From a virus: a DNA stretch of 32,448 nt. A program made the position numbers and the translations under genes. The notes under the pieces are model-generated. The model did no database searches. It saw only the letters and a program-made list of their open reading frames with translations, and was not told the DNA's origin. The DNA lies in IMG/VR virus record IMGVR_UViG_3300031841_000388, positions 1-32,448 of that record; one strand, 5' to 3'. This document shows, one piece after another, positions 3,805 to 10,533 of the stretch (positions within the stretch are counted from its first letter, which is position 1; the number at the start of each line of letters is the position of its first letter).

Positions 3805-3997
3805 GCTTTGGTCTAATGCTTTGTGACGTTACGTCACTTTCTAAGCAGAACATCTGAACGCCCTGCGCTAATTGGTATAGATCGTCAGCTGCATACTGTG
3901 CTTCATAGCAAGTATCGTAGTCTTCGAACCAGATCATAAGTTCTGTTTCTGTGTTTCTTAATTGGTAAACAATAACTAATGCAGTGAAAAATTCCAT
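3770..3997 (-). CDS. Small protein with hydrophobic N-terminus and two cysteines
   Basis: 75 residues from the ATG at 3997, chosen because GGAGAACACA precedes it directly; a TTG four codons upstream would consume this ribosome-binding site. The start MEFFTALVIVYQL is hydrophobic; FEDYDTC (Cys30) and MFCLESD (Cys51) mirror the 56-residue protein at 2482-2652. The C-terminal tail (IRPKLRPKAQSEEHL) comes from a tandem duplication and overlaps the end of the lysin gene by 35 bases on the opposite strand. It is the last gene of the leftward arm. Function unknown; possibly exported or membrane-bound. Confidence 0.65.
   Translation of the reverse strand: MEFFTALVIVYQLRNTETELMIWFEDYDTCYEAQYAADDLYQLAQGVQMFCLESDVTSQSIRPKLRPKAQSEEHL
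3791..3815. repeat. Tandem 12-13 base repeat across lysin stop
   Basis: AGCTTTCGGTCTA (3791-3803) is followed at once by AGCTTTGGTCTA (3804-3815), and then by a partial third unit ATGCTTT. The first copy ends in the lysin stop codon. On the minus strand the duplication encodes RPKL-RPKA in the C-terminal tail of the convergent small gene. It looks like slippage that lengthened that tail. Confidence 0.6.
3823..3837. promoter_or_regulatory. 15-base palindrome GTGACGTTACGTCAC
   Basis: A perfect 7+7 inverted repeat around a single T. The core GACGTNACGTC is found at only two other places that I noticed, 9879-9889 and (with a 3-base centre) 9899-9913, both in the divergence zone. This copy lies at the convergence point of the early and late arms, inside the minus-strand small gene (encoding SDVTS) and 19 bases past the lysin stop. 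It has no T-run, so it is more likely a protein-binding site than a terminator. Confidence 0.5.
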
Positions 3998-6713: not shown

Positions 6714-6919
6714 GTTGCAATCCAGTATTCTTTTACTCTTTTGCCATTATCTAATTTAATAAACTGGCTTTCGATAGCCATGCCAGATTGTTTTAGATCA
6801 TTAATTCTTGACGGTAATCTAAAGCATTGAAACTGTTCGAGTGCAGTCATGCCATTGATAACATGGCCTTGCTCAAGCCACGCTTTAATCTTTTTGTTCT
6901 GTGATTCTGTGTGTTCCAT
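6710..6919 (-). CDS. Winged-helix / HTH_39-like DNA-binding protein
   Basis: 69 residues. QNKKIKAWLEQGHVINGMTALEQFQ (about residues 7-31), CFRLPSRINDLKQSG (32-46) and a beta wing with KLDNGKRVKEYWI match the small phage helix-turn-helix family HTH_39: a first helix, T-A-L-x-x-F, R-x-x-x-R-I-x-x-L-K and a wing. GGAGAACACTA precedes the ATG, and these bases also encode residues near the end of the upstream nuclease, which it overlaps by 35 bases. It is probably a regulator or replication accessory protein; the target site is unknown. Confidence 0.75.
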   Translation of the reverse strand: MEHTESQNKKIKAWLEQGHVINGMTALEQFQCFRLPSRINDLKQSGMAIESQFIKLDNGKRVKEYWIAT

Positions 6920-7238
6920 TAGTGTTCTCCATTAGTTGTTGAAACATATCGCCACTCATTATGACTAGCGTTTGCGGAGTTCCTCTCCGTCTTTTATAGA
7001 AAGCAATATCTCTGCCTTCTAATACTTTGAATGGGCTGGGGAAGCTTGAAGTATCTCTGTACTTTACTTCTCCCACCAGTTCTTGCCCATTGATTTCGAG
7101 TTTGATGTCTCCCGAATACTCGCCTCCCAAACTGCCCGAGAGGGGTTGCCTTTTTGCTTTGATACCTTTGATTTTTTTGAGCCATTCGACAAACCATTTT
7201 TCATGGTAAGTTCCTTTGTTTTTGTTACGGTTTGCCAT
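6885..7238 (-). CDS. PDDEXK nuclease, Holliday-junction-resolvase-like
   Basis: 117 residues. Glu13 in a first helix (YHEKWFVEWLKK), Asp44 in GEYSGDIKLEI and the E-V-K of GQELVGEVKYR (Glu57, Lys59) form the usual E...D...ExK core of archaeal-type Holliday-junction resolvases. Basic residues before the core (KGIKAKRQPLSGSLGGEYSG) resemble the DNA-contact loop of that family. It would cut recombination or replication branch points before packaging. The ATG has GAGGAAG five bases upstream. It belongs to the early leftward operon with the recombination genes. Confidence 0.75.
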   Translation of the reverse strand: MANRNKNKGTYHEKWFVEWLKKIKGIKAKRQPLSGSLGGEYSGDIKLEINGQELVGEVKYRDTSSFPSPFKVLEGRDIAFYKRRRGTPQTLVIMSGDMFQQLMENTNGTHRITEQKD

Positions 7239-7402
7239 CGATCTTCCTCATAACAATTTAAGCAAACATACCAGCACTTTTCCATTGAATGATTGCTATT
7301 GTTTTTAAGTATTGCAACAAACCATTCGGTAATGATTTCACACGATATGCAAGTTATCTTTCCTCGTTTTTTTGATTTGCATTTCGTAGCCAAGAGCTTC
7401 AA
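7064..7402 (-). CDS. Possible zinc-ribbon protein overlapping the nuclease gene
   Basis: This frame is the only one covering the 99 bases between the XRE gene and the nuclease gene. It encodes KITCISCEIITEWFV and EKCWYVCLNCYEEDRW, two CxxC pairs spaced as in a zinc ribbon. However it has only TTG starts near its beginning (7402 or 7393), no good ribosome site, and its last third lies out of frame inside the nuclease gene. It may be a real overlapping gene or a gene with a misplaced end; the cysteine pairs argue that at least 7240-7360 is coding. Confidence 0.35.
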   Translation of the reverse strand: MKLLATKCKSKKRGKITCISCEIITEWFVAILKNNSNHSMEKCWYVCLNCYEEDRWQTVTKTKELTMKNGLSNGSKKSKVSKQKGNPSRAVWEASIRETSNSKSMGKNWWEK

Positions 7403-7610
7403 GCCAACAAAGAAGCATAAACCCAGAGGGTATTCGTTTGTGTCTTTCCCATTTGTGAATCAAAGAAACAGTGCATCCTATTTCATACGCCAATTTTTCT
7501 TGGCTTAAACCTTGCTCGTATCGAGCGTCTATCAACATCTGCACCATTTTTTCGTAATCTTTGGGTATGCTCACGGGCTTGTTGTATCGCGTGAAGCTCT
7601 TCGATTGCAT
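7338..7610 (-). CDS. XRE/Cro-type helix-turn-helix regulator
   Basis: 90 residues. QMLIDARYEQGLSQEKLAYE (about 24-43) and IGCTVSLIHKWERHKRIPS (44-62) form a standard XRE/Cro helix-turn-helix: L-S-Q-E-K-L-A, then G-C-T-V-S-L-I-H-K-W-E as the recognition helix. The ATG at 7610 has AAGG seven bases upstream; an internal ATG at 7547 would shorten the overlap with the preceding repressor-like gene from 128 to 65 bases. It lies in the same operon as that gene, so the pair may act as a Cro/CI-like regulatory couple, which is inference. Confidence 0.75.
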   Translation of the reverse strand: MQSKSFTRYNKPVSIPKDYEKMVQMLIDARYEQGLSQEKLAYEIGCTVSLIHKWERHKRIPSGFMLLCWLEALGYEMQIKKTRKDNLHIV

Positions 7611-8960: not shown

Positions 8961-8992
8961 TTTGTTCTCCGTTTCAATTAGTTAATGTTTGC

Positions 8993-9021
8993 ATTGTTGC
9001 ATAAACAATAGTTATTGTCAG
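8993..9021 (-). promoter_or_regulatory. Promoter-like element before DUF932-like gene
   Basis: The 225-base gap 8961-9185 has no convincing gene. On the minus strand it contains CTGACA (9016-9021) and AACAAT (8993-8998) separated by 17 bases, giving a short leader before the ATG at 8960. The inverted repeat ACAATA-GT-TATTGT (9005-9018) overlaps the -35 and spacer and may be an operator. Neither hexamer is a perfect match. Confidence 0.4.
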
Positions 9022-9185
9022 TTGTTACGTTGCGTTATTTTAAATGAGAAGTTTATACACTTACTCAGGTGTTGGGTAACGGTTTAATAAAGCATATCGC
9101 TATGGGTACGTTACTCTCATCGACCTAAGCGTATGCGAAGTAATGTTTTAAGGTACATCACTTCATAAACCTTGATGAAGGTGAC

Positions 9186-9575
9186 TTACGCCACCTTCTT
9201 CTTCAGTTCTGCAACTCTCTTGGCAAGATCGCCAGATACGTTGCGAGACTTACGTTCTGGAGTCCATTGCTCACCGTCTGTGACCAGTGAGTAGACCTCT
9301 TTGTCAGCATCGTGTCGTTCTGTGAGATGATTAAGTTCGATCTCCATGTTGTCTAAGCGTCGAGCGATAGCGTCTGCTCTGACGTCTCTGTTCTCCACGA
9401 TAGCTGTCTCGAGGTCAGCGAGGTTATCAGCGATCTGTTTCTTCTTGTAGTTGATTGAATTGTAGCTAGTGTAACAAGCATCTCTTGCGATACCATTCAA
9501 TAGGTAGTCCATGTTATCACCATTATGATACATAATAACTGCTAGTTTCATTTCTACGAGTGTTTTCTTAGTCAT
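9186..9575 (-). CDS. Early protein of unknown function, coiled-coil-like
   Basis: 129 residues, preceded by AAGGAGAACCTAGAA. The middle (residues about 45-95) is charged and helical (IADNLADLETAIVENRD then ARRLDNMEIELNHLTERHDA), consistent with a coiled coil; the C-terminus is basic (LAKRVAELKKKVA). No family is recognised. It is the first gene leftwards from the divergence zone, and its mRNA could carry the structured 9597-9799 region as a leader. A 225-base gap separates it from the next gene, so it may form its own unit, perhaps expressed very early. A weak hairpin (CACTTCAT/ATGAAGGTG) lies just past its stop with no T-run. Confidence 0.65.
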   Translation of the reverse strand: MTKKTLVEMKLAVIMYHNGDNMDYLLNGIARDACYTSYNSINYKKKQIADNLADLETAIVENRDVRADAIARRLDNMEIELNHLTERHDADKEVYSLVTDGEQWTPERKSRNVSGDLAKRVAELKKKVA

Positions 9576-9596
9576 TTCTAGGTTCTCCTTTTCTTT

Positions 9597-9799
9597 GCGA
9601 GGACCACCCTCGCAATGAGGACTTTAAGCACTGACCAAAGCCTGATCTCGATCAGGTTGTTATTCGCAATACCTTTCCCCACAAGGTGCCAGTCGAACAG
9701 ATAAAGACACTGGCAATATACAATCAGCTATGAACTGAGAAAGGAAAGGTGTTGCGAATGACCTTTGGACTGTGCCTTAAACAAACGAATGCGAGGTGG
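9597..9799 (+). ncRNA. Candidate structured non-coding RNA or leader
   Basis: A roughly 200-base non-coding stretch folds into nested stems. Outer: 9604-9614 with 9790-9799 (10 pairs, one bulge). Next: 9623-9631 and 9635-9640 with 9763-9768 and 9772-9781 (15 pairs around a small internal loop). Inside: a hairpin 9641-9646/9651-9656 with loop CTCG; a 17-pair stem 9662-9678/9743-9759 with one T-G pair; within it a 7-pair hairpin 9687-9693/9709-9715. The T-G pair is a wobble on the + strand but A-C on the minus strand, weakly favouring + transcription. On the minus strand it would be the leader of the 9186-9575 gene. I do not recognise it as tmRNA, 6S, RNase P or a known riboswitch. Confidence 0.65.
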
Positions 9800-9855
9800 C
9801 CGCAGCTAAAAGGAGAGCATAGACATTACTAAACACGAGTAGGAATTAAACTGGC

Positions 9856-9922
9856 TGTCAATACAACTTTTGTAGTTTGACGTAACGTCTTTTAGAATGT
9901 GACGCTACGTCACTACTTGACA
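9856..9922. promoter_or_regulatory. Divergent promoter-like elements with two palindromes
   Basis: Two perfect TTGACA -35 boxes face away from each other: one on the minus strand (9856-9861) and one on the plus strand (9917-9922). Between them lie GACGT-A-ACGTC (9879-9889) and GTGACG-CTA-CGTCAC (9899-9913), the second three bases before the plus -35. Neither -10 is good (for + the best is TAGTCT at 9942-9947 with a 19-base spacer), so an activator may be needed. A third copy of the palindrome is at 3823-3837. Confidence 0.5.
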
Positions 9923-9947
9923 AGCTTGTTGTAGAAAGTGCTAGTCT

Positions 9948-9970
9948 GGGGGGAGAGAGGGAGAGGGGGG
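9948..9970 (+). other. 23-base homopurine G-rich tract
   Basis: An uninterrupted G/A run (six G, AGAGA, GGG, AGA, six G) in the non-coding zone before the small terminase gene. A second G-rich stretch (GGGGGTGGGGG, from about 10463) follows directly after that gene. Such tracts can form unusual DNA structure or mark packaging sites; no more can be said from sequence. Confidence 0.5.
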
Positions 9971-10011: not shown

Positions 10012-10073
10012 CTAAGGTATAGCCAATCGGTAGTGTCTAAAGTATAGCTGATAGTTAGACACTAATGCATAGA
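10012..10073 (+). repeat. 25-base iterons and inverted repeat before terS
   Basis: CTAAGGTATAGC (10012-10023), CTAAAGTATAGC (10037-10048) and CTAATGCATAGA (10062-10073) start exactly 25 bases apart. Interleaved with them is a perfect 10-base inverted repeat, TAGTGTCTAA (10031-10040) and TTAGACACTA (10055-10064), ending at the first ATG of the small terminase gene. Iterated sites beside terS are typical of pac or cos binding regions; a replication origin is the alternative. Confidence 0.6.
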
Positions 10074-10463
10074 AGGATAATAGGTTTGAATGTTCCAGCT
10101 GATAGAAAACTAACACCTAAACAGATAGCTCTGGTGGATACACTCGTAGCAGAAGGGTTAAGTATCAAAGACGCTGCTCATAAAGCTGGATACGCAGCTG
10201 GCGATAGCGGAAGGGTAAGCGCACACAAAGCACTAAAGTCTCCTCATGTGCAACAGTATATGATGCAGAGGATGAATGAGACATTTGGACTTAGTGCTAC
10301 TAGTGCGCTGGCTACTGTTCGTAGGCTGTCAACTGGAGCTAAGTCTGAGTACGTACAGCTAGAAGCCAGCAAGGATCTGCTTGATAGGGCTGGCTTTAAG
10401 CCTATTGATAGAAGTCAGGTACAAGTTGCTGGGGATATTAAGGTATCTATTGACCTGACGTAG
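10065..10463 (+). CDS. terS: Terminase small subunit
   Basis: 132 residues. LTPKQIALVDTLVAEGLSIK (about 17-36), DAAHKAGYAAGDSGRVSAHK and SPHVQQYMMQRM match the DNA-binding helix-turn-helix and following helices of Terminase_2-type small subunits (KQ..FV..y...G....AA..AGY...A..L..P.V..Y). It recognises the packaging site and recruits the large subunit. The ATG at 10065 lies inside the third iteron and has no ribosome site; a TTG at 10086 has AGAAGG about ten bases upstream and would place the repeats wholly outside the gene. The large subunit gene is unusually far away (2 kb), with about ten small genes between. Confidence 0.8.
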   Translation: MHRRIIGLNVPADRKLTPKQIALVDTLVAEGLSIKDAAHKAGYAAGDSGRVSAHKALKSPHVQQYMMQRMNETFGLSATSALATVRRLSTGAKSEYVQLEASKDLLDRAGFKPIDRSQVQVAGDIKVSIDLT

Positions 10464-10533
10464 GGGGTGGGGGCAAAAAACGTTACTGCTAGTTACTGTA
10501 ATAGTCCCTCTCTCTTATTTTTAGCCTATAAGG

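Follow-up and report, generated by a model that had tools for sequence, protein, structure and literature searches.

Eukaryotic hairpin RNAs (hpRNAs), as in Drosophila, are long hairpins whose arms are inverted copies of a gene (PMC10317233). In staphylococcal phages, the CBASS-activating RNA (cabRNA) derives from the terminase region, inside terS-terL, and activates CdnE03/CdnE01, and the cabRNAs of different phages share no sequence homology among them (PMC10686824). Further structured RNAs that bear comparison are the phi29 pRNA, ColE1 RNA I/RNA II, and GOLLD, ROOL and OLE.

Here we analyze a predicted hairpin of a short-tailed marine phage, on a viral contig of 32 kb (IMG/VR record IMGVR_UViG_3300031841_000388; its whole stretch of 32,448 nt is called the window below). 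As in hpRNAs, the right arm is non-coding and, in the lineages with long arms, the target is covered from start to end; however, the host of the element is a prokaryotic virus without RNAi machinery, the hairpin abuts the gene that it mirrors and it has a conserved structured core. Like cabRNA, it would be a phage RNA of a few hundred nt from the terminase region, and the cabRNA duplex is sensitive to RNase III; in contrast to cabRNA, the hairpin is conserved by covariation and lies upstream of terS rather than inside terS-terL. The phi29 pRNA is also a structured phage RNA, with a three-way junction and ends that pair, and here the element adjoins packaging genes, but the presence of a TerS/TerL terminase, the lack of an Rfam match and the much longer arms place the element outside that class. 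With ColE1 RNA I/RNA II it shares a structured RNA upstream of a G-rich stretch and an antisense geometry, whereas it has neither an Rfam match nor a demonstrated origin, and its G-rich tract lies at the late promoter. Finally, GOLLD, ROOL and OLE are likewise large, conserved and of uncertain function, and some are carried by phages, but the present element has no Rfam 15 match and forms a simple hairpin rather than an ornate multi-branch fold.

Our literature search found no description of such a phage hairpin. To our knowledge, no nameable prokaryotic RNA kind joins a conserved core to arms mirroring the adjacent gene, nor do we know of any description, from bacteria or phages, of a long dsRNA hairpin under selection in which a gene pairs with a mirror copy of itself. 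The predicted RNA is in any case a new RNA family.

Genome setting and predicted fold

The hairpin occupies the gap that separates the divergent early (leftward) and late (rightward) operons (Table 1). The late genes encode the small terminase, large terminase, portal, capsid and tail proteins, while the early ones include a RecE-like exonuclease, a Sak annealing protein and a RusA-like resolvase, the rightmost being the gene at 9186-9575. The nearest isolate that we found is Pelagibacter phage EXVC031P Hodr, whose gene order matches the window; the title of its record (OQ414635) reads EXVC031P Hodr, yet the locus tags read EXVC032PBaldr. The early protein has no Pfam or PHROG match at E < 0.001, and its AlphaFold model is a long helical hairpin (pLDDT 89). 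A DACYTS motif is invariant in this protein. Its identity as a known regulator was considered and rejected, as no significant fold match was obtained; the model loosely resembles Rop/Rom (E >= 1.3) or UvsY (E 1.5), at noise-level E-values only. Conservation at synonymous sites of the early gene is not raised.

Table 1. Coordinates of the hairpin, its parts and the neighboring features in the window
Feature	Position	Strand	Evidence or remark
Whole predicted hairpin	9538-9857	+	115 pairs, -131.8 kcal/mol; inverted self-match 9538-9592/9808-9858
Core matched by covariance model R1, sole match in the window	9581-9819	+	119.6 bits, E 7.5e-32 (the window sequence is itself part of the model; model E-values are rough)
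Left outer arm, antisense of start codon, RBS and first codons of 9186-9575	9541-9592	+	predicted helices
Left-arm helices	9541-9548/9848-9855, 9550-9557/9839-9846, 9560-9564/9832-9836, 9582-9592/9808-9818	+	fold
X/X' local hairpin GCGAGG-ACCAC-CCTCGC	9596-9616	+	17-25/32-40 of alignment A1, 90% of cells paired
P2, 5' strand (partner 9763-9781)	9623-9640	+	fold and relatives' alignment
P3, small hairpin in three-way junction	9641-9656	+	fold and relatives' alignment
P4, long helix (9659-9678/9743-9762) with variable apex 9679-9742	9659-9762	+	helix 7, 97.4% paired
X'' strand TGCGAGGTGGCCGCAG, long-range partner of X'	9790-9805	+	helix 4 of alignment A2
Right outer arm AAAAGGAGAGCATAGACATTACTAA, non-coding mirror of early gene start	9808-9855	+	fold, inverted match
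Putative late promoter (TTGACA at 9917) and polypurine tract 9947-9969	9917-9969	+	downstream of hairpin
Small terminase subunit (TerS), first late gene	10065-10463	+	phrog_2538 E 5.5e-14; PF03592
Divergent early gene, 5' end forms left hairpin arm	9186-9575	-	helical protein without known family
RusA-like resolvase	6885-7238		early region

The original prediction, made from the letters of the window, proposed an undescribed structured RNA at 9597-9799 in a gene-free stretch, built of nested long-range stems. When both strands were folded against shuffled controls, 9590-9805 reached -82.3 kcal/mol as RNA and none of 200 shuffles was as good (z -7.3 on the + strand and -6.9 on the - strand). 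Each of the predicted stems was recovered: the 10-pair outer stem as 9604-9608/9795-9799 plus 9610-9614/9790-9794, the second one at 9623-9640/9763-9781 with 16 pairs instead of 15 and small interruptions, and the 17-pair stem 9662-9678/9743-9759 within a helix of 20 bp, together with local hairpins at 9641-9656, 9687-9715 and 9724-9738. The stems were thus correctly placed, but the proposed limits are too narrow, as pairing reaches 9538/9857, and the whole hairpin departs further from chance (z -12.8 on + and -7.4 on -). Similarly, the interval between both genes is indeed non-coding, but the left arm enters the coding 5' end of 9186-9575, and the outward pairing crosses the AGGAG that is the RBS of this early gene plus its start codon. 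An Rfam 15 scan of the window gave 0 matches and ARAGORN found nothing; a permissive Rfam scan of six loci, with E up to 1, gave three chance matches, all below the curated threshold. No DNA similar to the element was present in the phage collection searched.

Compensatory change in relatives and strand of the fold

Relatives were collected as viral contigs fetched via the terminase gene and the early gene. The element takes its place upstream of the TerS gene in dozens of marine viral contigs. Among 62 distinct intervals between both genes, almost every one folds into a long, nested hairpin, and their sequences have diverged strongly. Before any model fitting, 25 apex-trimmed relatives were aligned: 82.9% of the cells were paired, 146 cells were changed on both sides (57±5 in shuffles, 0/500), and shifting the partner positions halved the pairing. 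In the alignment of 49 relatives, which was structure-aligned and fitted to a covariance model, 89.4% of the cells of a 43-pair consensus were paired (67.5±0.6 shuffled, at most 50% when slid) and covariation was 0.553, compared with 0.175 in controls. These relatives do not keep the sequence without compensatory change: 421 cells were changed on both sides, against 125±9 in shuffles (0/500). The covariance model matched 41 of 86 terminase loci and, in a set collected independently via a conserved polypurine string, 38 of 80 loci, with one match per locus and adjoining the terminase genes at all loci fetched; these loci are metagenomic contigs, many of them related, and the counts are not independent events. 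One TerS neighborhood (L081) has no such hairpin, so some TerS relatives are without the element. The covarying pairs that the original prediction proposed to look for by covariance model are therefore present among the relatives.

The predicted core consists of the X-X' hairpin, an internal loop, P2, the small hairpin P3 and the long helix P4. The X'/X'' helix has 92.9% of its cells paired and changes on both sides at 6 of its 7 pairs. X' covaries with the adjacent X and also with X'', 180 nt distant, which implies that two mutually exclusive pairings are kept. P4 in the relatives bears a near-invariant TTCGCAA/TTGCGAA, and its basal first pair is G.U in 45 of 49. CUUG tetraloops occur in the small hairpin of several lineages, and C(GNA)G apex loops, which are very stable in DNA, were seen in compact forms. 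In addition, L042 and L045 have flanks near-identical to those of L036 and L048 but a very different P4 apex (compact versus about 110 nt longer), as if it had been swapped as a cassette.

The near-invariant P4 sequence and the G.U pair of the core would suit a + RNA with a structural or packaging role (pRNA-like) or one that is the ligand of a phage protein, where the core would be the functional part and the arms no more than a clamp; the constant vicinity of the terminase genes among the loci fetched points the same way. Nevertheless, the phage has a small terminase subunit, unlike phi29, no Rfam pRNA match was obtained, and arms of up to 536 pairs exceed what a clamp needs, for which we consider this role improbable.

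Which strand folds was judged from the mismatches within the helices. The first counts on folded sequences (G.U 89 : A.C 13, and 40 : 0 for the outer helix alone) were set aside because they are inflated by base composition, and a composition-corrected log-linear model of the folded mismatches gave no separate G.U effect. As folded-mismatch counts are confounded by composition, we used instead a folding-free test, where each 1.5 kb interval is aligned to its own reverse complement. This inverted self-alignment of 29 loci comprised 6118 opposed positions, 4954 of them Watson-Crick, 418 G.U and 75 A.C. Per 1000, the mirror arm had 127 A>G and 118 C>T, which give G.U on the + strand, against 23 G>A and 32 T>C, which give A.C. 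The other mismatches were A.G (111), G.A (83), U.U (75), G.G (45) and C.C (15), the order expected for RNA helices. Among out-of-sample loci, G.U and A.C numbered 200 and 35, and 15 of 16 loci went in the same direction with none opposite; the bias is most safely summarized by this per-locus sign test (15:0, one tie). Unpaired + strand sites of the interval have A and G in equal measure (34031 and 32960), so that no mutational bias of the observed size is visible. We conclude that selection acts on the folding of the predicted + strand RNA, which is antisense to the early gene.

The original prediction had allowed for either a free ncRNA or the leader of 9186-9575. The element may be a free ncRNA, but the leader is not supported, since + strand pairs are favored and the gene lies on the - strand. 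A minus-strand mRNA that folds and hides its own RBS would account for the RBS and start codon being within the outer stem, and some loci have, to the right of the hairpin, a site resembling a minus promoter; even so, every informative out-of-sample locus contradicts it, with the wobble signature on the opposite strand, and the + fold is the more stable one by 12 kcal/mol in the window and by 110-126 in L005 and L076 (about equal in Hodr). We thus give the leader hardly any credence.

The same mismatches bear on a hairpin or cruciform of single-stranded DNA, serving replication, packaging or fold-back priming and cut by the RusA-like resolvase. The phage does encode a RecE-like exonuclease, Sak and RusA, the compact forms have C(GNA)G apex loops, a + promoter was not found, and in one analysis G.U changes were suppressed as well. 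In the calibration, however, RNase P, a true RNA, gave equally weak G.U ratios (helix substitution asymmetry 1.3-3.4 via the same pairwise pipeline, against 2.8-6.9 for the hairpin). The 5.6-fold excess of G.U over A.C, the tolerance of G.A and U.U above other mismatches and the near-invariant G.U pair are RNA-like, and the CUUG tetraloops of several lineages also argue against DNA, which makes this explanation unlikely. Both the DNA-level and the packaging-RNA readings are of low probability, with a poorer fit to the wobble pattern or to the long arms.

Arms as a mirror of the early gene

In the window the mirror spans only about the first 12 codons of the early gene, with arms of about 50 positions. 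Arm length depends on the lineage, with about 50 pairs in the shortest forms and more than 500 in the longest, and several lineages reach 430-536 pairs. Those of L036, L042 and L100-L111 have 126-252 positions, the ones of Hodr are colinear over about 545 nt, and in L005, L018, L019, L022, L041, L072, L076 and L116 they comprise 389-536 opposed positions and take in all or almost all of the early gene, with no matching reading frame on the right arm. In L076, the 1129 nt fold reaches -663 kcal/mol on + and -537 on -. The right arms of L005, L018, L022, L076, L041, L019 and L072 have no + reading frame of gene length. The mirrored RBS and ATG on the + arm were considered as a gene of their own and rejected: the frames are short, differ between loci as judged by eye, and none is gene-length. 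No conserved reading frame therefore runs through the mirror arm, and this, along with the absence of an Rfam match, the compensatory change and the + strand signature, agrees with the undescribed structured RNA that had been predicted.

The core of L062 is nearly the same as that of L024 while their early genes are unrelated, and in both phages the right arm matches the gene next to it. The right arm of L062 against its own gene start gives -55.2 kcal/mol and ranks first, the median for arms of other loci being -25.7. In this sense, the mirror follows the gene.

An inverted gene duplication whose structure is not under selection, with arms kept alike by template switching and strand-biased mutation, would be in line with arms that are plainly an inverted gene copy and very variable in length. 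Compensatory changes are found within the non-gene core too, A>G and C>T are both raised while G>A and T>C are both low, and no such bias appears at unpaired sites, all of which leave this origin with very little probability. Like an hpRNA, the element has an arm that copies a gene in inverted, non-coding form, and it may represent a prokaryotic hpRNA counterpart, where the non-coding mirror of the early gene is kept through selection for RNA pairing, gives upon + transcription a dsRNA of up to about 1.1 kb that is antisense to it, and is rebuilt upon gene exchange; we hold this to be nearly an even bet.

Transcription and a possible role at the early/late switch

In most cases a perfect TTGACA, the late -35 box preceding the terminase gene, follows shortly after the end of the right arm; in Hodr a strong sigma-70-like promoter (TTGACA-17-TATACT) stands before TerS. 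The 23-mer GGGGGGAGAGAGGGAGAGGGGGG (9947-9969, + strand) is near-invariant upstream of TerS in most relatives, with exact copies in at least 120 contig stretches, and usually begins 30-31 nt past the TTGACA start, at about -5 to +18 of the putative late promoter. This polypurine tract could be an R-loop or hybrid-quadruplex tract. Ten nt of it (9953-9962) form a perfect complement to TCCCTCTCTC (10505-10514), just after TerS. Also, two 15-bp palindromes, GTGACGTTACGTCAC (3823-3837) at the convergent end of the operons and GTGACGCTACGTCAC (9899-9913) just before the late -35 box, gave 4 matches where 0.24 are expected by chance; they are likely operators of a phage regulator, and the gene at 7338-7610 carries an HTH_3 domain. 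The leftward operon has a 225-nt gap (8961-9185) with a minus promoter-like site, CTGACA-17-AACAAT, and a similar one is found in L005. In several loci (L020, L026, L028, L034, L049, L065, L067, L077 and L079) the contig ends within about 220 nt upstream of TerS; such ends near the polypurine tract or hairpin may be assembly breaks or genome ends.

Upstream of the hairpin, no candidate for a sigma-70-like + promoter rises above the rest (mean z -0.26, 85 loci), and no intrinsic terminator stands out between the convergent ends of both operons. A search for a + promoter within the early gene or to its left likewise gave none that was convincing. Since neither a + promoter nor a terminator at the operon ends is convincing, the source of + transcription may be late read-through that continues around the genome as it replicates.

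For a hairpin with the observed fold, compensatory conservation, + strand preference, mirror relation and place between early gene and late promoter, our main reading is a long hairpin antisense RNA made in the late-gene direction and acting at the early/late switch, to which we give a probability of roughly 40%. Late in infection, + transcription would cross the interval and the RNA would snap into a long double-stranded hairpin carrying the antisense to the translation start of the early gene. Together with host RNase III-type enzymes the hairpin would then work as a switch element, by which the early mRNA may be removed or neutralized and the late transcript trimmed just before its own promoter. 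Several findings count against this reading. Its own mirror arm masks the antisense stretch, an unusual arrangement for an antisense regulator; no + promoter stands out upstream, and where the arms are long the RNA would need a start beyond the early gene as a whole; the composition-corrected model gave no separate G.U effect; and TerS neighborhoods such as L081 are without the hairpin.

A close rival to the antisense switch keeps the trimming or protection of the late transcript and makes the antisense irrelevant. The transcript would run from TerS through the structural and lysis genes, pass antisense through the early region and arrive at the hairpin before its own promoter, where it would be cut or have its 3' end protected. 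The wobble evidence for a + strand RNA, the lack of a good local + promoter and of an outstanding terminator between the convergent operons, and a hairpin that ends right at the edge of the late promoter are all in accordance with such a route. Nevertheless, it leaves the mirroring of the early gene and the re-matching after gene swap unexplained; we judge it rather unlikely as a full account.

Returning to the antisense hairpin at the early/late switch, the cultured relative Hodr carries the hairpin, at roughly 11.7-12.6 kb of its record, so that its transcription, its processing by RNase III and its effect on the switch are directly testable. Furthermore, the hairpin bears on how bacterial immunity senses duplex RNA made by phages.
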